The notes under the pieces were generated by a model. That model saw nothing but the letters and a program-made list of their open reading frames with translations, was not told the DNA's origin and made no database searches. DNA of 64,000 nucleotides, from assembly GCA_947034885.2 (NCBI GenBank), contig OX344753.2, positions 9,734,001 to 9,798,000 on the forward strand. The letters are read 5' to 3'. Positions 1,719-29,222 of this stretch are shown piece by piece. Made by a program: the position numbers and the translations under genes. This stretch comes from Thuidium tamariscinum. Taxonomy: Eukaryota > Streptophyta > Bryopsida > Hypnales > Thuidiaceae. Numbering within the stretch: the first letter of the stretch is position 1; every line of letters begins with the position of its first letter.

Positions 1719-3975
1719 TAGAAAGTTATTCTTGACAGTGTTTTACGCGCAAAGGAGAAAGGGGGATGCAAACAAAATTGTTTAGGAGGCATCAATGCAA
1801 AATGTATATTGGACCAATGGTACATGGCTTGGGGTCAAAAGTATGAAGCAAGAGCTACATGGATAATGCAAATGTTGAATGCTTTCTACACTCGTATTGA
1901 GGGACCAACAAGAGACAAGTATGTCACGAAATTGGATGGCAGAGTTGTTTGCAATGCATGCTATGCTACAGTATTGGGGTACTCTCAGAGATGTTTTAAG
2001 CAATTGAAGACATCACATGCAGAATATGGTAGAGTGGCAGCTTCACATGGAAACACATTGCAAGGAAGGGAAAGTGCAAAGATGTCAGCTGCTAGGGAGA
2101 GGCTTACTGTATTTGTGAATGAAGCTGGCTGTCAACAACCCCATCAATCGGTACAACGGAAAATGGACAGTGCAGTGCTACCACTCATCTTGTTGCCTAT
2201 GAACACAACCAAATTGGATGTATTTCAATATGTGAATGAAGAAGTGAAGAAACTAGTGGATAGATCTGCACTATCAGAAAGTTCATTTCGTCGCTTGTGG
2301 CGGAAGGAGTTTCCTCATGTACAAATTCCACCGTTCTCTAGATTTTCAAAGTGCTATCATTGTTGGGAGTATAAGTGTAGAATGGAATCAACAACAAATA
2401 CAATAGCAAAGGAAAAGATTAAGGAGTAGTACATTCTTCACATCCAAATTCAAATGGACGAGAGGCGAGATTATTGGTTGTTCAAGAGATCAGCTATGAT
2501 CACTCCAGATTTTTTTATGTGTTTGATAGTGAATGGTATGGATCAGAACACAACCATGATATAGAAGATGAGGCAATCTGTGAAGAGTATTGAATCTCGA
2601 TTTGTGAAGACTCATCTTTGTGGAGTATTGGTACATGGAATTGGCTTCTACGCAGACTTATGGATAGATGCTCACCACAAATATGATAGCAATCAAGTGA
2701 TAACATCACTAATGAACGTTATAAGTGACGTGAAGCGAAGGAAAGGATCATTGCCACCAACATTGAGGATTCAAGCAAATAACACCACTAGAGAGAACAA
2801 AAACATCTACATTTGCCATGTGCACTACGATGGTGGGGCTTGGATTTTTCAAAGAAGTGCATTTTTGTTTCTTCATTGTAGGCCACACACATGAAGACAT
2901 AGATCAAAGACTCAGTGTGATTTCAAATGTCTTGAAGAGAAAGAACATAGATACCTTGGAAGAGATGCTACATTTGGTGGAGAAGGGGACATCATATACG
3001 GAGGCGCTTGTAAGCGCACGCAAACTTGAGCACGTTCGTGATTGGAAGGCGTTCATTACTCCTCATTTGCTTCAAGGTGGGGAACAACTCACAAGTATAA
3101 CACTTCCTCACCATATGAAGTTTTATATGAAAAATGGAATGGTTTGAGTGCAGTACAAACATTTCAGCTCGGATGAATGGGGCCCAGCAAGAGGACATTT
3201 GTGTTTGCACTCTTTATTGAGCACATCAGAGAAACCGGAGCTTGCACCGGTGTTCGCAGCTGATGAGAGGGAGTTGAAATCACTAGATGAATTCATCGCA
3301 TATAAGGACAAGTTAATTTTGAGAGGTTCTGATCCAATAAAGAATATGGAGGTTGTGGAGAAAATTCAACTATTCAAGAAGTATCTGAAGGAGTTTCCCC
3401 AAGAAAATTGCGAGGGCATCAGGAACTCACCGTTTTGGCCGAGCGAAATTGTGAACGACTGTGAAGAGGGACCAACTCTTCCAAACGTTGAAGATGAAGA
3501 TACAAATGTAGGTCAAACATTGGATGTAGATGATAATACAACAGGAAGTGTAGGTGTTGATTTGATCATGTCAACAATGCCTAATCCAGAGAGGAGGAAG
3601 GATTTCGGACCTCGAAAAGGCCAACCTCGTCAAGCAAAATCCAGAAGAGTGATTGGAAGAAAGAATAGAGATTCAAGTATTTAATTAGCACGTGAAGTAG
3701 TAGGACACGGAAGTGCTGATCCTTTCCCACCGTTCAATCCAGAGATTGATGTTGTTGTAGGACAGTTTGTAGCTCTTCAAGTTGAATTGACAGAAGTAAG
3801 AGGAGGAGTACCTTACTATGTGGCAAAGGTACTAGAGGTAGGTCAAGGGAATTGGGCCAATGAGATGAAAGTCTTGTGGTACTGGCCTAGTATGAAACCT
3901 GGAGCATGAGATGAAGCAAGAAGTCACAGAGTGAGGTACACTAATTGCATGGAATCATCATGGGAACCTGTGAGT
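1719..3975 (+). pseudogene. Decayed DUF7869-type transposon-associated gene
   Basis: Reading along one frame gives a Cys-bearing N-terminal stretch (about 1760-1830), then an open frame from 1809 to a TAG at 2427-2429. The same frame continues through a second stop near 2560 to about 2815. A one-base shift then moves the reading to another frame, which carries the best landmark: 'RENKN' followed about 30 residues later by 'VGHTHEDIDQ'. From memory this pair is the hallmark of the DUF7869 family, found in multicopy transposon-like genes of mosses, oomycetes and animals. That frame is interrupted again by TGA at 3145-3147 and TAA at 3682-3684. A final conserved-looking segment ('PFPPFNPEIDVVVGQFVAL', about 3720-3780) follows. 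Four or more stops and a frameshift make this a dead copy. The biochemical role of the family is unknown to me. Confidence 0.6.
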
Positions 3976-4003
3976 CCCCGATTCGTCACCGGGGACTCAC
4001 GGG
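3969..4003. repeat. 11-bp perfect hairpin after the DUF7869 pseudogene
   Basis: GTGAGTCCCCG is followed, after a 9-base loop, by its exact reverse complement CGGGGACTCAC and then a short T-rich run. It lies just past the end of the DUF7869 coding remnant. It may mark an element boundary or a transcription or processing signal of that element. No flanking duplication was identified. Confidence 0.6.
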
Positions 4004-4499
4004 TTCTTTTTTCGAATTTATACATAAACTAAGGCGTATTTAGGCTCATAACACCCACAAAAGGGCATTAAACCTGTATTGGCACTACACATATCAATGT
4101 GCCATTTGGTTATTAGGTGGGATTTAGGATAGTTTACATCCAAAACGGGCCTAATCTTAGCTAAATAGACGCCAAATTGATAGAGACATGCAGGATTAGG
4201 GTAAGAAGCCTAAAAAGGCCCTGTCTAGGCTAGGAAGTCCTCATAGGGGGATCTAGGAGGAATCCCCCACTCCCCATAGCATCGAAGAGAATACGGATAA
4301 AATACTAACCTTGAAATGCAGGTACCGGGCAATTTCCTAATTCTAGGAGCACACAGTGGGGATGCAGATTTGCATCCGAGTGGGGGGATCCCATGGGTGG
4401 TCCCCTCTGAAGTTTGGGAATTTTCCGACATTGTTTGGATATTTTCCTAGACGGTCAACCGCGGTGGACAGGGTTGACGAATTGCAACGTCCAGGGCAA

Positions 4500-5860
4500 A
4501 ATTACGTCCAAAATCCGGACGTCCGGACGTCCAGACGTCCGGACGCAGTGGACGCAGTGGACGTAGTCCTCGGCGACCAACGGACGGCATCCGTCGGAAG
4601 TAGACGTGCGGACGGGCGGTCGGAGACTGCGGCTGGACTCCGGACGGCACCGTCCGACCTCCCGTCCGTAGTCTCCGACCTCCCGACCGCACTCCCCGAC
4701 CTCCCGTCCGCAGTCTCCGACCCCCCGTCCGCACTCCCCGACCCCCCGTCCGCACTCCCCGACCCCCTGTCCGCACTCCCCGACCCCCCGTCCGCAGTCT
4801 CCGACCCCCCGTCCGCAGTCTCCGACCTCCCGTCCGCAGTCTCCAACCTCCCATCCGCAGTCTCCGACCCCCCGTCCGTAGTCTCCGACCTCCCGTCCGC
4901 AGTCTCCGACCCCCCGTCCGCACTCCCCGACCTCCCGTCCGCAGTCTCCGACCCCCCGTCCGCACTCCCCGACCCCCCGTCCGTAGTCTCCGACCCCCCG
5001 TCCGCACTCCCCAACCCCCCGTCCGCAGTCTCCGACCTCCCGTCCGCACTCCCCGACCCCCCGTCCGCAGTCTCCGACGGCGGTCGGAGAGTGCGGACGG
5101 GAGGTCGGAGACTGCGGACGGGAGGTCGGAGACTGCGGACGGGGGGTCGGGGAGTGCGGACGGGGGGTCGGAGACTGCGGACGGGAGGTCGGAGACTGCG
5201 GACGGGGGGTCGGGGAGTGCGGCGGGGGGTCGGAGACTGCGGACGGGGGGTCGGAGACTGCGGACGGGAGGTCGGGGAGTGCGGACGGGAGGTCGGAGAG
5301 TGCGGACGGGAGGTCGGGGAGTGCGGACGGGAGGTCGGAGACTACGGACGGGAGGTCGGAGACTGCGGACGGGAGGTCGGAGACTGCGGACGGGAGGTCG
5401 GAGACTGCGGACGGGGGGTCGGGGAGTGCGAACGGGGGGTCGGGGAGTGCGAACGGGGGGTCGGGGAGTGCGGACGGGGGGTCGGGGAGTGCGGACGGGG
5501 GGTCGGAGACTGCGGACGGGAGGTCGGGGAGTGCGGACGGGAGGTCGGAGACTGCGGACGGGCGGTCGGAGACTGCGGACGGGAGGTCGGAGACTGCGGA
5601 CGGGGGGTCGGGGAGTGCGAACGGGGGGTCGGGGAGTGCGAACGGGGGGTCGGGGAGTGCGGACGGGGGGTCGGATGGTGCCGTCCGCTGCTCCGTCCGT
5701 AGTCCGACCGACCACCCGTCCGCCTTCTGTCTTATTGAAAGGCCGTCCGCATGGCTGTCCGGTCGCCCGTCCGCTGGACGTATGTCAAAAAAATTTCAAA
5801 TGTCACAGGACGTCCGAGGGGTAGCGTCTACGTCCCATGGACGTCCGGACGTCCCGTCAT
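4500..5860. repeat. GC-rich inverted array of 21-bp tandem repeats
   Basis: From about 4650 to 5078 a 21-bp unit (CTCCGACC-Y-CCCGTCCGCA-S-T type) repeats about 20 times. At 5071-5090 the sequence turns round through TCTCCGAC-GGCG-GTCGGAGA, and the reverse-complement unit continues about 28 times to roughly 5672. The flanks also match each other inverted: GGACGTCCGGACG-type runs near 4510-4550 and 5840-5860, and 'GGACGGCACC(G/A)TCCGACC' near both array ends. The whole block is therefore one giant hairpin in otherwise AT-rich DNA. Because 21 is a multiple of three, every frame stays open on both strands. The resulting long frames translate as heptapeptide repeats such as SDLPSAV, which I regard as accidental. 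It is probably part of a foldback or other repetitive element. Confidence 0.85.
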
Positions 5861-8152: not shown

Positions 8153-8470
8153 AAGACAAATACGTAGAGTAGAGGTACTCCATTAAAATATATAAAGTAG
8201 AGGTAGAGCAAGACAAATACGTAGAGTAGAGGTACTCCATTAAAATACGTAAAGTAGAGGTAGAGCAAGACAAATACGTAGGGTAGAGGTACTCCATTAA
8301 AATACGTAAAGTAGAGGTAGAGCAAGGCAAATACATAGAGTAGAGGTACTCCATTAAAATACGTAAAGTAGAGGTAGAGCAAGACAAATACATAGGGTAG
8401 AGGTACTCAAGTAAAATATGTAAAGTAGAAGTAGAACGATACCAATACGTAGAGTAGAGGTATTCAATTA
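8153..8470. repeat. 57-bp minisatellite, about five and a half copies
   Basis: A unit starting AAGACAAATACGTAGAGTAG begins at 8153, 8210, 8267, 8324 and 8381, exactly 57 bp apart, with a degraded partial copy to about 8470. Divergence is low inside the array and rises at its 3' edge, where isolated 'TACGTAGAGTA' words continue to about 8570. The period is a multiple of three, so both overlapping minus-strand open frames across it (19-residue repeats rich in Tyr, Leu and Phe) are probably accidental. Confidence 0.85.
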
Positions 8471-8699
8471 GAGTACGTAGAGTAGACTAAACCAAGACAA
8501 TTACGTAGAGTAAAGGAAAACCAAGATAAATACATAAAATAGGATAACAGTACAAAAACGTAGAGACGGGGTAGGAAATACCATAAGAAAAGCGGGCCAA
8601 ACAAACCCAAACACGTATAAGTAGGATTAACGAGAACAAAGCATAAAAGTGGGACAAGAGAACGAAACACATAAGAAGTAAGCAGCAATTAGAAGTAGG

Positions 8700-12264: not shown

Positions 12265-15178
12265 CTAACTCTCATCTTGCAGTGCAAGCTGCAGACGCTT
12301 CGCCACAGCATCCCATGACACCAATTCGTTCATGAAGGTGGTCAGGTAATCAGGTCGTCGGTTCTGTCACACTTTTCAGATCATTCACCAAATTAATTCT
12401 GTAAATTGGTGCAAATGAATTCTGGCCAGGTGCCAAAATTTGGGAGTGAAATCTAACTTACATAAATCTCTAAAAACAAGCACAAGAATTCCTAAAAGTG
12501 CCAGTTGTAAAATACCTGACCAGTTCAACATAATTGACGATGTCAGATTGTTTCCCAATTTAATTAATTAATTAATTCATATTTTTTAGATGATCGAGTT
12601 GTTTTCCAATTTAATTAATTAATTAATCAATATTTTTTTAAATGAATTGTTTCCCAACTTTCAACACTTCTACACAAACCTCCACACATGAGGTGATGAG
12701 GAGCTAAGCTTATATACTGGTATTCATTGAGTACAGAGCAAATTCTGTTGGATTTAGGTGAAGAGCTGGTTAGTTAGATTTCAAGCACTAATTTGTTATT
12801 TTAGAAAATGCAATTACTATGTTTCATATTTCATCATCATGACATGGTAGACATATTGAAAGAATGATGAGGTCCATTTGCTCATCTGATAGTCAAGGTA
12901 ATATGCATGCTGCATTTGGAAATCCATCACCCCCACCCCAGCCGCCCCAACATTCCATCGATCAGTAAAAAGCCAATTAATCATGACATATATCTTTCCA
13001 ACAGTGTAATGTTAGGCCACAAACTAGGACATGTATAGATTTGGGGTTTACACCAAACATTCAGACCTACATTATAGCAATGAAACATTGTCAATTTAAA
13101 AAAATTAATAATGATGTTTTAAGTTATGTTTCCCCAAATACTAAAGCATTAAATATCATGTAAGCTTCTAGCTACACATTTGTGAATTGTGAAATGAATT
13201 GCTATTTTTTTCTTTGCTCAAGGTTCATTGCATTAATCCCGTCATCAGTATATATTAACTATTATTTATTTGTAACACACAAAGGGCTCATGCCCACACT
13301 ATCAAGCTAGCAACATGCAAGTGCAGTTCTACTAATTAATGTTTTTTTGAATCTCCATCAACAAAAAATGAAAGTGTATAAATGGAATATGTGACAATTT
13401 AATCTTTCTTCAAATGTGTGAAAGTAAGAAAAGTACCTCCCAAACATCGGCCACTAGAATCGACTGTAAATTCACAGTAATTACTACCCTTGATCAGTAT
13501 CACACACATTAGTGAATCATACAATCATATACTTGCTACACGGGATGCTATTTTCAAGGCAAATTTCATCTTTCGCATCATTGCACATAACCTCAACAAT
13601 TGAATCTGTTCAATCATGTTGAATTAAGGGTCTAATTAGAAGTATTTTCAAAGTTCGAACGCTTAATCAAGCTTTGTTTGTAGACATGGATAGACATTTC
13701 AAGTGTCTACAGTGAAGTATTGTACACTGTGTACAGCTTAGTCATGGAAATAATCCCCCAATCGAGAGAGAGACTTGAAGTGCATGCACTTCTTCAACAA
13801 GAATAGTTTCAGAATTCGGCAACCACGAGCTGATCTGTCATGAGGTCCGCTGTGGGCACCACATGTAAAAATTGGCAAGCCAAATTGATTTTTAGAGCCC
13901 AAAATTTTTGAAATATTCGATCATGGCGAGACAAATGAAGGAAGGAAGTGCTGAAGGAACTCACAATGTGGCCCCAAACGAGAGGATTGATAGCATTGGG
14001 CGACTTTTCCACCACCAGTTTGCCGTCCGCCACCGACAACCACGCCCACCCCGACCCAAACTACGTGGCTCCCGCTTGCTTGAACTCCGTGACGAAATTC
14101 TCGAATGACCCGAAGTCCCGTTTGAGCAGGTTGAGCAGCTCCCCTTCGTCGGGTTTCTTCCCTCCTCCCGCGGGCGTCATGGACAACCAAAAGAACTCGT
14201 GGTTCCATGCCTGCGTCGCGTTGTTGAAGGGCACCGTGGGCTGTCCGTTGTTGTACGTCGTCTTCACGATGTCCGACAGAGATTGGGTGGCCAGCGGCGT
14301 GCCCTTGATCTACTTCTTCAGGTTGTCCACGTACACTCAGTGGTGTTTCCCCCAGTGGAACTCCAAGGTCTCTTTGCTCATGTGGGGTTCCAGGGCGTCC
14401 TGCATAAAAACAACACATAGGTCACATACTCACATCCAATCTCATCTCAGTGAGTACGCGTGACGTCAGTCAGGAGCTCACAATGGAACATCAATTGATA
14501 TTCTGGACACCTGTAGCGGCGGCGACCTTGGTCATTGCTGGAAGAAAAAGAACAGCCTTATTTTCCTTTGGAAAATATCAGAAGTTTAATTTCAGATGAT
14601 TGTGCACTATGAGCTGGTTGGGAAAATCAGGTAAAAACGGCAAAGTAATAGAAAAAACTAGTGACACAAATTTCACCCATCAGCTGGTTATTTGTCAAAG
14701 TCTGGGAATGGCAATCTAGCCCAAAGCATGCATAGATTAAGTTACATAGACAAATGCTCATCAGTGCAATTTGTGAAGGATTTCATATGGTTGTCAATGC
14801 TCAGTGGTGATCGAATAGGATACTAACAATAGAATACTCTACGGATGGAATTTGGACACAAAAGAACATTTATCGGCTCTTTTGCATAGAAACAAAAAGA
14901 CAATTATCCCCACTTGGAATTCTCCCTTAACATTTTTCCTTTTTCAACTCCTGGCAATTAAACCGTACGTCAACCCGGGAAGCAGAGATCGATAGAGAAT
15001 CTCCCTACAAGTGTGACCAGACAACTGAACAAATTTGCTTGTGTATTGATAATTGTCACACTAGCCAGATCGAAATAGATCCCCTGTTTCCCAGAGATAT
15101 CTGAAGCTTTGCACTCACCAATGCGTAAGGCGGGGGCCTCAACTCCATCATGCTCAAAGGAAACGGAATGGCTGCCAT
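12265..15178 (-). pseudogene. FSD: Iron superoxide dismutase, recently disabled (FSD)
   Basis: Chloroplast-type iron superoxide dismutase, which converts superoxide to peroxide and oxygen. Exons on the minus strand: to 15119 (ends ELRPPPYAL), 14399-13965, 13463-13437, 12909-12886 and 12363-12265, all joining in phase 0. Landmarks in order are [53 protein letters not shown] and [11 protein letters not shown], so all four metal ligands (His, His, Asp, His) are still encoded. Three in-frame stops interrupt the second exon: TGA 14339-14337, TAG 14312-14310 and TAG 14063-14061. The fourth exon has ATGAGC where a GT donor is expected. The upstream frame to about 15550 may hold a transit peptide; ATG 15178 is only a candidate start. 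Similarity is otherwise high, so loss looks recent. It sits head-to-head with CCS. Confidence 0.85.
12548..12655 (+). repeat. Tandem duplication with TTAATTAATTAATTAAT core
   Basis: Two copies of a unit of about 65 bp, running 'GTTGTTTYCCAATTTAATTAATTAATTAAT..ATATTTTTT', lie in the intron between the last two FSD exons. A third partial 'TTGTTTCCCAAC' follows. This is local slippage or duplication in intronic DNA. Confidence 0.6.
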
Positions 15179-15738
15179 GCTGACGACGTCGACGTAGAGG
15201 TGACTTGATCTAATTTTCGCCTCACAAGTACAGTATGGAGGGCTCAAGATTCGGTTGGTTTGGGTGAAGCACGCGCGCAGCACAGGCCTGGCAATGCGAA
15301 GACGAAAAATGGGGGAGGCTGGGAGGAGAGGCTGAAGACGATGAGCACATGCCCATGGCTCTTTGGCTAAACCGGCCTTAACTGAGAGCATCCCCACAGC
15401 TGTCAGGACAGAGGCGCAAACTGGGTATTTGGCTAGGCCACTGCACGCAAAATATGGCTCAAAATTTGACCGGCCATGGTCAAATTTATTGAGTACATAG
15501 TGAAATGCAGGGTGGCCAGCCTCACCCGGGAAGGGGTTGACTGTATTTTGCACCCCAAAATTGAGATTGACACCCCCAGCTATCCCTCCAATTAAATTTT
15601 TTTTTTTAAAATGAAATGCTTGAAAGCAATTTCACTTACAGAAAATGAGACTTTGCTAGTCCCCAAAAAGATGAATCAAAATGAAATTCATCTAAGTTTG
15701 AATTTATATGTGAGAAATAGAGCTATGGGGATGCTCTA

Positions 15739-15809
15739 AGTACAACTTACGATATGCCCATCCTATGACAACACTGGAGAGATCTGTACTATTGAGCTTT
15801 CTGTAGTAC
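15739..15809. promoter_or_regulatory. Three further GTAC-core sites upstream of FSD
   Basis: AGTAC at 15739-15743, GTACT at 15786-15790 and AGTAC at 15805-15809 lie about 0.6 kb upstream of the candidate FSD start. They carry the same core as the dense cluster at 16483-16581. Single GTAC sites are expected by chance about every 256 bp, so this group on its own is weak evidence. Confidence 0.3.
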
Positions 15810-16482
15810 ACTCAACCCTCCCTCTCTAATGACACACTAGCTCTGTAATTGCACATGCCCTATCCGCTCATATAACATTAGATAACTTGTACATGTAAAG
15901 TTGTGGACATTTTGAAGAGTGTAGCCAATTTTAGAGACCCATTTATTAGCTTTTGACCAAAAGAGGAGAGGGTTTGCATTGAGAGAAGTTACACATGAGG
16001 GCATTTGAGATTTTGAGTAGAACTTTACTCTATGAAGGGGACATACCTCTTGTAATATTAAAAGCTCTTTTTTTTCCAAAAAGTAGTGTCATTAATACAC
16101 ATATCTTAAACCAACAAAATAATGAAAATGACAATATACATCTAAAGATTTACATAGGGACAATGAATTTTAACAAGAATACATATTCATTTGTTGGCTT
16201 TGTGAATGTACTATTGGTTTTGGGTATATTGACCTTAGATAGGATTGGCACTCTCATTCCTTTACATCTTAACCTTACATTACATGAGGTAAATTATCCT
16301 ATATTTAAGTGTGACCCCAACAAAAATCTAGCCCCAAATGAACATTTAGAGTGCCACGAGTTGATTTTAGATATTCACAAATGCTCCCTACTTTATCATA
16401 ACAAGGAACATTAAGAAACACATGAATACACTACAAGAGAATGGAGTGCTTTAAATATAGTCATCAGGCTTAAGTAGGGCGT

Positions 16483-16581
16483 AGTACATTTTCCATCCTG
16501 CCTAGTACAATGTCGTATAAGCTAGTACGCCAGCGTAGTAAAACGGCAGTACACTATTCTTCAGTAGTACCAATGCAGTAC
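16483..16581 (-). promoter_or_regulatory. Cluster of six GTACT copper-response-like elements
   Basis: AGTAC on the plus strand (GTACT on the minus strand) occurs at 16483, 16504, 16524, 16548, 16566 and 16577. All are in the same orientation, spaced 21, 20, 24, 18 and 11 bp, mostly close to one or two helical turns. About 0.4 GTAC sites would be expected by chance in this length. GTAC is the core of copper-response elements bound by SPL7/CRR1-type SBP factors, and GTACT has been reported as the copper-responsive element of a moss FSD promoter. The cluster lies between the divergent FSD and CCS genes, about 0.4-0.5 kb from the first CCS exon I can place, with the motif reading GTACT in the FSD direction. 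The function is inferred from motif and position only. Confidence 0.6.
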
Positions 16582-16587
16582 CAAATA

Positions 16588-16954
16588 TCAATGACCAGTT
16601 AGATTTCGATCCCGCCCGTCCAAAGTTTGATGACAACATTGTGACAACATTGTGAGTCCATCTGATCCATGGATACCTTTCCTAGCTGAATGCGAACATT
16701 TAAGCCCATGTCCCAGGACATATTTCGAAGAGTTGATGTCGATTCCGCCTTGCGGTGTATTTACAAACTTTCTCAATGCTTGCAATTTTGGAACGGAGTT
16801 CGTCGTCATGCCATTTGCAACCGTTGCGAACGTCTCCACTTCGACTCTGAGTTCCAGCAACTTGACAGTGAGATTCATTCATTCGGTCCTGCTTTGGAAA
16901 CATATACTGCCGAATTCGGTCACATTGCATTCTAGGGGTGAAATTCGATCTTGA
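16588..16954. other. Multi-frame open stretch upstream of CCS
   Basis: Several frames on both strands stay open for 75-100 codons between the GTAC cluster and the first placed CCS exon. One plus frame contains 'HAICNRCERLHFD', faintly like the zinc-binding segment of Fur-type proteins, but nothing else supports that. The stretch may include the CCS 5' leader or first exon, or a small old insertion. I assign no product. Confidence 0.25.
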
Positions 16955-17014
16955 ATTGGCAGATGCTGGACTAAGTTATCTCGCAAGTAATGCTCACCGG
17001 TGCTGGTTGTGTAG

Positions 17015-18762
17015 GGAAGAATCTTTGGGGAGAATAACAGGACGACGACGTCTTCGGCTTCTTCGTTTCAGAGAGCTTCTGCAATGGGAGTGATAAAGAA
17101 TGCGGCAACCGGTAAGCTAGAACATCACATTGACCATGAGTTGCGATTGCGAATATTGGGACGTGACCAGTGATTGATCTGATTTGAATGGTTTTATTGT
17201 GCATCAGAAGATGTAGAAAGCTTCTCGAAGCAGCCGAACCTTCGGATTCTGGAGGTTTTGGGCGCCTCGCAACCTAGTAAACTGTATCTGGAGCCCGTCG
17301 GTGCCGAGAAGCAATTCCAAAATTCGTCTACTTGTAAGATCGATCGATCGAAACCCTCGCCGTTTTCAGTTTGTGAATTAATATGGGTTCTTCAAATTCC
17401 ATCGTTGCTTGTAGAATCGAAGATTTTCAAGGAACTTCTCAACTTAATTGGAATGCATGCTTTTAATCGATAATGGTGGGAATGTGTGCACTTCAGGTGT
17501 GCCGATGACAGTGGCAGTGGCGGAATTCAAAGGTCCAGTGGTACACGGAGTGGTGCGATTCGCGCAAGCGAGCGACGCACAGCAAGAATGCGTCATTGAA
17601 GTGGAAATCGACGGCCTGGCTCCCGGTGCACATGGCTGGAGCGTTCATGAGTTCGGCGACCTCACGCAAGGCCCTTTGAGCACCGGCACAGCTTACGACT
17701 TCCCTCTTACCTACCCCAGCTCCGTCGCCCCCGTACGTACTCTTTTTCTACAACCACCCTCGAAATTTGAGTTTCTTAGCCACACTAGCTCAGTGTCGGT
17801 GTTATGGGTTTTGGTGGTCTACTGGTGTAGAGAGCACATCTTCGGCAACTAGGTGTCAAATAGAAACTGGAGAGAATCTTCAGAGTTCTTAACACTTGCT
17901 TGTAACTCATCGCCTCTTCCGAAATGGCTATGTCCTGCTTGTGAATTTAGGGGCCTGGTTGTGTGAATTAACATGCCGTCAGTGGCGAGGAATGTTCCTT
18001 TCGTAACGAAGATCTCTATGAATCGTGGCATCGGACATAACCTCTGCTGGTTGGATCTTGCTTAATCAAAGGTCAAAAAGAAGGGCACCATAGGAAGAGC
18101 TGGACTGGTGAAGACCTGGCCATGCCCTCATCTCTCACGCTTGGTGGCAACCTCTACAGAAATGAGAGCTCTCCATTGAGCAGTATTCACAGATGCATGT
18201 GACCATGATTAGCAAAACTTCTACCCTGATTTTTATAGCTAAAAAATTGCAAGTGTCGTAGGGTCGAATTTGAACCTGAAGTACATTGAGCATCGTCTTT
18301 AGCAACTTGAGCTACTCATGACAATTGCATTTGGGTCTACTAGCTGCCTTGCATTGAGAGTATGCGCGCATCCTTGAGATGAATTAAGTTTCGTTTAGAA
18401 TTGCAGCGACGTACATTACTTTCTCAAGGGTAGCTATTGCTGTACACAATTAAGAGGTTGCCATAGGGTTTGTGCAGGTGCAGGAGGAGGCAAATTCGAA
18501 TCAGGTGGAGGTGGGCAACTTGGGGTCGTTGTGGGTAAACCAAGAGGGTCATGTGCAAAGCAGCGCAAGCAACGACAGGATTGCCGTGGCGGACATCATT
18601 GGTCGCTCGGTGGTGTTGTACGGCCATGGCGACGGAAATGGGGATGCAAGCTTGACGAGAGTGGCGGCCGCGGTGATCGCACGCAGTGCTCGAGCTAGCA
18701 GCCTCACTCCGCAGCTCTGCAATTGCGATGGCTCGCTGCTTTGGCAGGGCAACGCCAACTGA
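17015..18762 (+). CDS. CCS: Copper chaperone for superoxide dismutase (CCS)
   Basis: CCS docks onto Cu/Zn superoxide dismutase and delivers copper and the disulfide. Exons: 17015-17111 (ATG candidate 17084), 17209-17334, 17494-17732 and 18478-18762, with phases 1, 1, 0 agreeing across all junctions. Exon 3 carries the SOD-like domain ('AVAEFKGPVVHGVVRFAQ', 'HGWSVHEFGDLTQG'). Exon 4 continues it ('VGNLGSLWVN', 'VADIIGRSVVLYG', 'AAVIARSA') and ends with the C-terminal CxC motif in LCNCDGSLLW. Exon 2 resembles only the second half of the usual N-terminal heavy-metal domain ('LEVLGAS'); I could not find an MxCxxC motif. The splice site at 17014 follows an in-frame stop, so an unseen upstream exon may supply a transit peptide and that motif. 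The gene is divergent from FSD. Confidence 0.8.
18248..18325 (-). mobile_element. Possible tRNA-derived SINE in CCS intron 3
   Basis: On the minus strand TAGCTCAAGTTGC resembles a polymerase III A box. About 40 nt later, GGTTCAAATTC resembles a B box and is followed by GACCC. Loosely pairing ends (GTCATGA with TACGAC) surround them, and a TTTTTT run follows within about 20 nt. The D and anticodon arms do not fold cleanly, so it is not a functional tRNA gene. A SINE head or tRNA fossil is the best reading. Confidence 0.3.
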
Positions 18763-20685
18763 CTTGCCCATCGACTTAATTGATGGATCATGGGTGCTCA
18801 GTTAATTTCCACACTTTTCTTTAAGAGAAGTTAGTTACGAAGCTCATGATTGTTCAGTACTCTATTGGTTTAGTTGGTGTACATATAATAATGATCTTCA
18901 ATTTGCATGCTTTCTTCATAGTCTACCGTAACATTCTTGAATTTGAATTTCAAGGAGGAAGTCAAGCTCCTTTCACTGTAACTTTGAAATCTTCAATGCA
19001 AGTTTTACCGGTTCCATGTATTGTGGACCACTGGAACTCGAATATATTCTTCTTATAATGTTAATGTTTTTTGCGTCTTTGTGTCTTCCCTTTTAGCACT
19101 GTCTAAAGATGAACCTCATTCACTACCCACTATCTCTTGAAAAGATGTCAACACCCTTGCCAAACAACCCCTCTTGAAAATTCTTGACCCTCTGTTGCGG
19201 GAAGTAATAAACAAAAGTCCCCCGTGTCATCCATTTCTTTTTGGTAAAGTTTGATGTTGTTCAAGGAGGGTCAATGGATCTTAAAAACAAGACCCCCTCC
19301 ACTAATGTCAATTGGAATATGGAACAATATGGATATTGAATACCAAATATTGGATATGGATACTAAATATTGAAAGTGAAATATAGATATGACACAAAAT
19401 ATGGAATATGAGCATATGGTATGGGATATGGGATATATATAGGGAATATAGATACATATATATGATTACATATAAAAATTACATATTCACATATCAATTG
19501 CAAAGGTTATTGTCTCAAAAAAAAATACAAGGAAGGGTAGGTGAGGTAGAAAAAATAATTAATTTGAAAATTATTCTCAAGGATTATTCAAATTGAATAC
19601 CCATAAGTGACTATTTGTTCAAAAGACAATGTATAGTTCCATAAAGCCCACAAGATATGAGTGGTGGAATTCTCCTCAAAGAGACCTTGAAAGAGACTAA
19701 TTAGTCTAGCATGGGGATTCTTTGTGCTTGCACATGAGGAGGGGGTTTGTTCCTCTACTTGTTCTTGATGGGGATACCCAAAGCATTTGATCCCTCAACT
19801 CTTATATTAGGTTGCCTTGGATGTTGTGTCTTATCACCCTAGTTGTCACCCTTAAAAGTCATATACTTCTAAAAAAAAGGGGAGAAACTAATCAATTCAA
19901 ATGGTCTTCGTAATAAAATTATTATCATTATTATTAATTGATAAGTTCTTCAATTTGGAATTGAGACAATTGAAGTATGCCGAAAATGGTTCATTGCTAT
20001 TTGCATTGCACTAGCCAAGGTGCTTGTCAAACATGTTTTGATGCAAGAGTTTCTTATCTAGGATGGTTACTAAATGGTCAATTTATAGTCAATTTTAGAA
20101 GTAATTCCCAATTTTGAGTGTCAAATTTCATTAAGAATAATTCATTAGAGTTTGATTTTATCATATAGACACAATCTATATAGGCAATTGTAAGAAACAA
20201 TTATACTCCTTTCTATCATTTATTGTTTGGTAATTTTTTTTGGCAATAAATTGTGTTGTGGCACTAATTGAGATTCAAGATTTAAAGGTAAGGTATTCAT
20301 GACTACAATACACCATTGCTAATATTCTTATATTTAAAATACATTTTATAGTCTAAAAATATCTCTTGATTTTATATCACACTTGCCAATTTTTAAAGAT
20401 AGCATTATTTGGAGTTGGAATTTAGAGGAAATGGTCTTATATTCAAGGCTTTTTTGTCTTTTTGATACCAAATTGCACGAGAAGAAAATAATTTGGCTAA
20501 AAAGTGGAAATAAATTGTGAAATAAATTGGAATTTTGGCACATTTTTTGCCCATCTTTTATGATAGATTTTAGATGACATCAATGTTGATCCATATTCAC
20601 TAAACACAACATCAACAATTTAGGAATAGCTTAGTTTAGACTTATGGGCCAAAGTGTACCCCCTTATGGACATATGATATATATT

Positions 20686-20795
20686 AATGTGATATTTTCT
20701 ATTCAATGTATAGATGAATGTTGAAATTTGGAGCACCACTATACAATTTTATATTGCCACTATGGGAGTTCATGAAAGAAAAAAGCCTTACTTCA
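20686..20795 (+). repeat. Dispersed repeat, copy 1 of 2
   Basis: The block beginning 'AATGTGATATTTTCTAT' and containing 'GAATGTTGAAATTTGGAGCACCACTAT' (split here as GAATGTTGAAATTTGG and AGCACCACTAT) is repeated in direct orientation at 60366-60480 with roughly 85% identity by eye. No coding content and no obvious terminal repeats were seen. Confidence 0.65.
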
Positions 20796-22103
20796 AGTAG
20801 ATTAGCATCTATTGCTCTCAAAATCCTTATTTTGGTGTAACTAGAATTGTGCTTTGATGGGCTCTTTTGGACTCATAACATTGTATAAAATTGGCATTTT
20901 ATGCTCATTTTCAAGGTAACTAAACTCCACATCATGTATGAAAACAAGTCTTATATTTTTAGGACCAAAAATGAGTGAATGGTCTTACAATAGTGATCAC
21001 TTCATTGTTAAATTTCAAAAATTATGAGATAAATGAAACTAATTTGTTACAAATTTGAAGCCAAAATTCAAAATCAAACATGGTAGAGTGAAAGAACACA
21101 GGACTGAAAGACACATAATAGGAAAAAATTTGAAAAATGATTCAAATTCAAGTGCAAGACATGTATTTTAGCAATTGATGCTAGATACATATTGAAAAGA
21201 GGTAAAAAAACAAATGCTTTGACCTCATTGGCCAGAATGTATTACCCAATGACTCTTTTACTCTTTACTTTTAGACCACCCATGCTTAGAAATTTTTTAT
21301 AAATTTAATAATGAATCTTCTTCTAAATTTGAATATACCACTTTATAGATAACCTTATTTTCTTGAGAATAAGCCAAAGAATAAGTTATTTTTCACATTC
21401 CTAATTCTAGAAATGGCCCCCCTAAAAATGGATCAACCTTTATTACGGTTGATGGAAATTTAAGGGTTAAGATTAATTGTAGATCGAATAATTTTTTCTT
21501 TAAATTAATTCAAAATGTTAAATTTGAACCATAATTATTTTTAAAGATTTGTATTTTATTTTTTTACTTAAGTCATTTTTAAATGGCCATGTATGAACTA
21601 AAAAGCTTAGTTTTTGAGCTTTAGAAGAAACTTTTGTTTTTTAATATGCATTTTTTGTGATGTCCACTTGTTTTTTTATTTTATTTGATGTTATAAAAAA
21701 CATCTTACTGTTAAATTTGATATCATTGTTAATATAAAAATAGGTGGACTCATCACAAAAGAATGTAAAAAAATGACAAATTTCTTGTAGGCAAGGCTTG
21801 ATTCTATAGTATCTATTAAATAATAGAATATTTTCTAAGAAAATTCTTCAAAATCTATACTATGCAAATGTTTATAAAACTACCAAAAGAATCTTCCAAA
21901 AAATGAATGAATGAAAAAATACATTGCTCTATACTTGGGATGTGTTTGTATTTACCCATTGATCAAAATTTGAATGCATGGTTGTTAGGAATTAAGGGAT
22001 TAAACTAGATGCCAATCTTGAATAACAAACATTATCCATATTCCTTAGGCTTCTATAAAATAAAGTAGAACAACTTGTTATAAACAAAAGATCCATTTTG
22101 GAC

Positions 22104-28880: not shown

Positions 28881-29119
28881 GTTTAAGAAATTATGTGAAA
28901 TCATTTTTTGGTCAGGGTTTTTAGTTCAAATCCTTGGATTTTTTTGGCTTGCAAAAGCCTTGATCTAAACTCAATGCCATATATTAGATCTTCCATGATT
29001 AAGTTCTTTGGCACTTCATTTTTGAAAATCAATGGCCATGTAAGCAGATTCTTCATAAATGATGTTTTCTTAAGAAATTTCATTCTTTGCAAATTTCTAA
29101 TTTTCTTTGAAATCTCAAC

Positions 29120-29222
29120 CAGGTACCCCAAATTGGGGTACCATGGGATACTAGAGAAAGTTTCGTCAGATCCGATTGTACATTCTTGGATCTCTCATGG
29201 TACCCTAGTTTGGGGTACCCTT
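29120..29222. repeat. Related degenerate palindrome
   Basis: 'CCAAATTGGGGTACCATGGG' faces 'CATGGTACCCTAGTTTGGGG' around a central CGTCAGATCCGATTG. It is a decayed member of the same palindrome family as 28517-28880, and similar cores occur near 24483 and 26881. Confidence 0.6.

Follow-up and report, generated by a model that had tools for sequence, protein, structure and literature searches.

A dense array of GTACT elements as a candidate copper-response region beside a second copper chaperone gene and an apparently disrupted iron superoxide dismutase gene in Thuidium tamariscinum

The closest described relatives of the array reported here are copper-response promoters that are recognized by SBP-domain proteins. 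In Arabidopsis, according to PMC9516184, SPL7 activates its targets in low copper, the 7-bp motif GTACTRC is enriched in the promoters of the genes activated in this way, and AGTACA/TGTACT is cited as the variant that SPL7 binds most strongly in vitro; the GTAC core is thought to be common to all SBP proteins. According to the same source, the motif is accompanied by several GTAC cores per promoter region, with the FSD1 peak containing eight GTAC cores and two GTACTRC copies. In a moss, GTACT was reported as the FSD promoter element that PpSBP2 recognizes (Nagae et al. 2008, as cited in PMC3617394), and this protein is reported to act as a repressor of FSD when copper is high (PMC3617394). The copper-response elements of CRR1 targets in Chlamydomonas, described in the same article, are also built on GTAC. 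A CCS-FSD array is not reported in the titles and abstract openings of the literature matches listed, and the literature search returned no paper combining a copper chaperone, an iron superoxide dismutase and a bidirectional promoter.

The array in Thuidium tamariscinum resembles all three systems and departs from each. It shares with the Arabidopsis promoters the 7-bp motif and the presence of several GTAC cores, but it contains four GTACTRC copies within 101 bp on one strand, and the gene that it may still control is a CCS copy rather than FSD. As in the moss promoter, GTACT precedes a plant gene for an iron SOD, although here that gene looks like a pseudogene whose ATG is 1.3 kb from the array, which is itself near CCS. 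In comparison with the Chlamydomonas elements, with which it has the GTAC core in common, the flanking motif is longer, the array is larger and the adjacent genes are different.

The window, the whole 64-kb stretch of DNA that was analysed (C5:9734001-9798000, contig OX344753.2), belongs to a genome searched as 363 Mb in 19 contigs. Motif scanning, Markov simulations and Fisher tests delineate an array at 16481..16581 on the minus strand, which consists of six GTACT elements. These appear on the plus strand as AGTAC starting at 16483, 16504, 16524, 16548, 16566 and 16577, and GTACT thus reads leftwards. The six positions, within 99 bp, are exactly those listed in the preliminary description, and they form the densest GTAC cluster of the window, in which six GTAC per 100 bp are unique to the array and the runner-up (29119-29222) has five. 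The tetranucleotide is over-represented in the window as a whole (207 copies compared with a mean of 127 in shuffles; ~3.2 per kb versus 2.1-2.3 per kb at three other loci of the genome), and because of this the chance expectation, derived from the window GTAC frequency, is ~0.3 per 99 bp, close to the ~0.4 sites estimated earlier. Across 600 simulated sequences of 64 kb (Markov orders 1, 3 and 4, with 200 sequences per order), AGTAC on the plus strand reached a maximum of four per 100 bp, compared with the six observed, and GYAGTAC a maximum of two, compared with four observed; six GTAC per 100 bp in any context occurred in a single simulated sequence. All six cores of the array are intact, and successive AGTAC elements are 21, 20, 24, 18 and 11 bp apart. 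The proposal that these spacings approach helical turns holds at a period of 10.5 bp (R=0.83, p=0.023) but not at 10 bp (p=0.41) or 11 bp (p=0.43); with three periods tried, the 10.5-bp phasing is weak evidence and suggestive only.

The bases that follow GTACT are independent of the criterion by which the array was found. The full GTACTRC motif is present in four of the six elements (GYAGTAC at 16481, 16546, 16564 and 16575), compared with 9 of the 125 GTACT in the rest of the window (Fisher test, p=0.0008), while the remaining two elements are GTACTAG (16502-16508 and 16522-16528). R follows GTACT in all six array elements versus 50 of the 125 elsewhere (p=0.005) and, read from the flanks, three of the six are also AGTACA/TGTACT. 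The earlier view that GTACT is here of the copper-element type is strengthened by the fit of these four elements to the longer motif tied to SPL7 targets. A copper-response element is expected to present multiple GTAC cores upstream of its target, the extended motif, and an SPL7/CRR1-type SBP factor encoded in the same genome; in addition to the motif, six cores precede the predicted ATG of the candidate CCS, and such a factor is indicated by SBP exons. A search for the SBP family returned 14 matches, which group into nine loci. At C1:899783-900644 the SBP exons, the part of the gene that was read, contain RVCLQCA in a four-cysteine first zinc finger, which we take to be typical of SPL7 and CRR1. 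Exons of predicted SPL7/CRR1 type are therefore present in the genome.

As stated in the preliminary description, the array is located between FSD and CCS homologues. The FSD homologue extends on the minus strand from an ATG at 15178 to about 12265, with predicted exons at 15119..15178 (exon 1, with the ATG and MAAIPFPLSMMELRPPPYAL), 13965..14399 (exon 2), 13437..13463 (a short exon ending in ADVWE), 12886..12909 (encoding HAYYLDYQ) and 12265..12363 (the last exon with its stop). Among solved structures the best SOD chain is 8w9z_L (1.7e-36), followed by 1unf, 8xzv_L, FSD2 (7bjk) and PAP9, with the PAP4/FSD3 chains ranking behind all of these. Exon 2 displays no frameshift and is interrupted by three stops (TGA at 14337-14339, TAG at 14310-14312 and TAG at 14061-14063), and the HAYYLDYQ exon has ATGAGC in place of the expected GT donor. 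Given these three in-frame stops and the missing splice donor, the gene is an apparent pseudogene, and the sequence as it stands does not allow the full enzyme to be made. Each of the stops could derive from CGA or CAG through a single C-to-T change, which looks like the decay of methylated cytosines; the other FSD of the genome has Arg and Gln at the first and second site and, as a point against, Leu at the third, where three aligned solved chains have Gln. Because the remaining protein is well preserved, the death of the gene was probably recent.

These lesions bear directly on the shared, live copper switch that had been envisaged for the two genes. Gene order is divergent, as in a bidirectional promoter, but the second feature of such promoters, a pair of working genes, is lacking since FSD appears disrupted; the array is also remote from the FSD ATG, and the first domain of CCS is damaged (see below). 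A live switch common to FSD and CCS is thus unlikely, the claim failing on the FSD side because of the in-frame stops and the lost donor, and the locus cautions against deducing merely from the order of two genes that they share a promoter. A whole-genome protein search for FSD, a single search that scores few candidates, returned two matches from three candidates, the window gene and C2:37785839-37786174. The latter is a single-exon gene with an uninterrupted 268-aa frame, its best solved relatives are PAP4/FSD3, and no GTACTRC was found in the 5 kb upstream of it.

On the plus strand, a second CCS copy is predicted to comprise exon 1 at 16690..16867 (a candidate with an open frame from the ATG at 16690, containing the CxxC as CNRC at 16816), exon 2 at 17208..17333 (the rest of domain 1, with AG and GT borders), exon 3 at 17497..17732 (the first half of the SOD-like domain) and exon 4 at 18478..18762 (the second half of that domain, a CNC motif and the stop), the last two supported by homology and exon prediction. 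When joined, the four exons form an open 274-aa frame. The array lies about 110-210 bp upstream of the candidate ATG, with 109 bp between its end and the ATG. CCS proteins are characterized by an ATX1/HMA domain with MxCxxC in frame, a SOD-like domain and a C-terminal CxC. The window copy has the SOD-like domain (Pfam 1.4e-18), for which the best solved relatives are CCS, and CNC, but its first domain gives no match to Pfam HMA and its CxxC is frame-offset: TEFVV (16793) and the first Cys codon of CxxC lie 23 nt apart, compared with 24 nt in an apparently intact paralogue, so that TEFVV and CxxC are out of frame by one base. The paralogue, on C2, contains both HMA and SOD-like domains once its exons are joined, and 68 of 170 aligned positions are identical in the two proteins. 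The window gene is thus an old, divergent second copy that either encodes a chaperone lacking a normal first domain or has begun to decay. In the 2.9 kb examined upstream of the apparently intact CCS only two GTACTRC were found, both distant, at −1401 and −1533 relative to the CxxC codon, and regulation of CCS by a copper array is therefore not general in this plant.

The explanation that ranks first, and which we hold to be about evenly balanced between right and wrong, is that the elements form a copper-response array that belongs to the promoter of the second CCS and is bound by an SBP protein, in a region whose genes are being lost. An SBP-domain factor, of the SPL7/CRR1 type or PpSBP2-like, would bind the array upstream of the candidate CCS ATG; the six sites, being near helical register, could place several SBP proteins on one face of the DNA, and the bound proteins would switch the second CCS with copper supply. 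In this scheme we infer SBP binding, the transcription start, the production of a CCS product and the direction of the response. The neighbouring FSD may once have shared the array. The explanation is favoured by a density beyond chance, the RC extension, the position by the CCS start, the SPL7-type SBP exons and the 10.5-bp phasing. It is weakened by the damaged first domain of the adjacent CCS, in which Pfam finds no HMA, by the scarcity of GTACTRC upstream of the apparently intact CCS, by the fit of the array to a loose 11-bp repeat unit (see below), and because GTACTRC triplets are genome-wide hardly more frequent than a control, with no copper gene recognized at the triplet places examined in part. 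If functional, the array amounts to a compact copper switch for a CCS gene, and one that would be simple to test. A more far-reaching proposal, which we regard as doubtful, is that the copper switch has been re-centred at this locus: the iron SOD of copper-regulated type would be dead, with the PAP4/FSD3-type gene the only other FSD found, and the array would drive a second CCS devoid of the usual metal-entry domain, as a form of the chaperone for copper deficiency. If the only FSD that is not of PAP4 type has truly been lost, the textbook copper/iron SOD swap would be arranged differently in this plant.

Three other explanations were weighed, of which the highest ranked is that the array is a fossil, the copper-response region of an FSD-CCS pair that once worked, with both genes recently dead and the elements persisting for lack of time. 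This is a tentative alternative, less probable than an array serving the second CCS promoter. It is favoured by an FSD with three stops and a lost donor whose residues are otherwise recognizable and well kept, by a CCS domain 1 with a one-base frame offset and no HMA match, and by the presence of an apparently intact CCS elsewhere in the genome. In the second CCS, however, the SOD-like domain is open and recognizable despite its limited identity to the paralogue, which suggests long constraint on this copy, and the intactness of every GTAC core also argues against a fossil. Far behind, as a most improbable explanation, comes a site for another SBP factor, a developmental SPL with no tie to copper. 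The GTAC core, thought to be shared by all SBP proteins, and the nine SBP loci of the genome would accommodate such a factor, but GTACTRC is tied to SPL7 targets (PMC9516184), and the neighbouring genes are copper-related.

Between these two in rank, and unlikely in our estimate, is chance or repeat drift, which would make the array an AGTAC-rich stretch without a regulatory role in a genome that is rich in AGTAC repeats. Triplets of GTACTRC (three consecutive GYAGTAC, gaps 3-33) give 63 matches genome-wide, some of them overlapping, compared with 51 for a reversed-pattern control, and are hence not specific on their own. The preliminary description had accepted that similar density in many unrelated regions would count against a copper role, and this was borne out in part, as 62 other triplets were found; a simple self-similarity and copy test classed 56 of the 63 as tandem or multicopy. 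Among the seven that are neither, the array has the lowest self-similarity (0.39), in opposition to a repeat origin. Four of the other six such places (all except C2:7258863 and C4:29213663) were followed up in part through their ORFs, and no copper gene was recognized. Scanning covered ORFs of at least 120 aa at L046 (7 of the 10 listed), L047 (4 of 5) and L050 (7 of 9), where the family matches were Senescence, Ca-ATPase domains, and SET and RING, respectively, and ORFs of at least 100 aa at L068, where 5 of the 10 listed gave no family match; two ORFs at a tandem-labelled place (L051) likewise gave none. As a guide to copper genes the triplets therefore fail, and a GTACTRC cluster on its own does not point to such a gene.

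Many of the tandem triplets are GTAGTACTNT repeats, a minisatellite with a 10-bp period and T after AGTAC, a combination absent from the array, where T follows none of the six AGTAC. Its wraparound score against GTAGTACTNT is 48, far short of the 114 and 142 obtained with two true arrays and matched by 62 of 200 spacer shuffles, so descent from a decayed GTAGTACTNT minisatellite finds no support; for the GTAGTACTTT and GTAGTACTAT forms, 89 and 65 of 200 shuffles, respectively, are as high as the array. With looser units that lack the T, the array score is reached by 18 of 200 shuffles (10 bp) and by 10 of 200 (11 bp, GTAGTACNNNN). A repeat origin is weakened overall, but the 11-bp unit, against which 190 of 200 spacer shuffles score below the array, lends it some weight. 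Drift is also favoured by a nearby dispersed CACTA-like inverted-repeat element, one end of which lies at 16429..16463 on the plus strand. This end was found by a genome homology search and includes a TATA-like stretch seen by eye. Elsewhere in the genome 213-215 bp separate the paired matches of this element. As a carrier of the array it was rejected: the homology stops about 20 bp before the array, a second end scores at no place in 13000-22000 above 9 of 11 bases, and, of the 15 matches of a 501-base genome search, the 14 outside the window cover only query positions 114-165, which do not include the array. The copper-related genes that the array adjoins also speak against drift.

Several minor features accompany these loci. 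Rfam gave nothing at gathering thresholds. Elsewhere in the window, a 57-bp tandem repeat at 8153-8516 contains GTACT in five successive units, and two adjoining 21-bp tandem arrays with G+C-rich units occupy 4638-5675 in opposite orientation. An intron of the other CCS contains a Gag-like frame with a CCHC knuckle, recognized by eye, on the minus strand at 2744-4006 of its locus.
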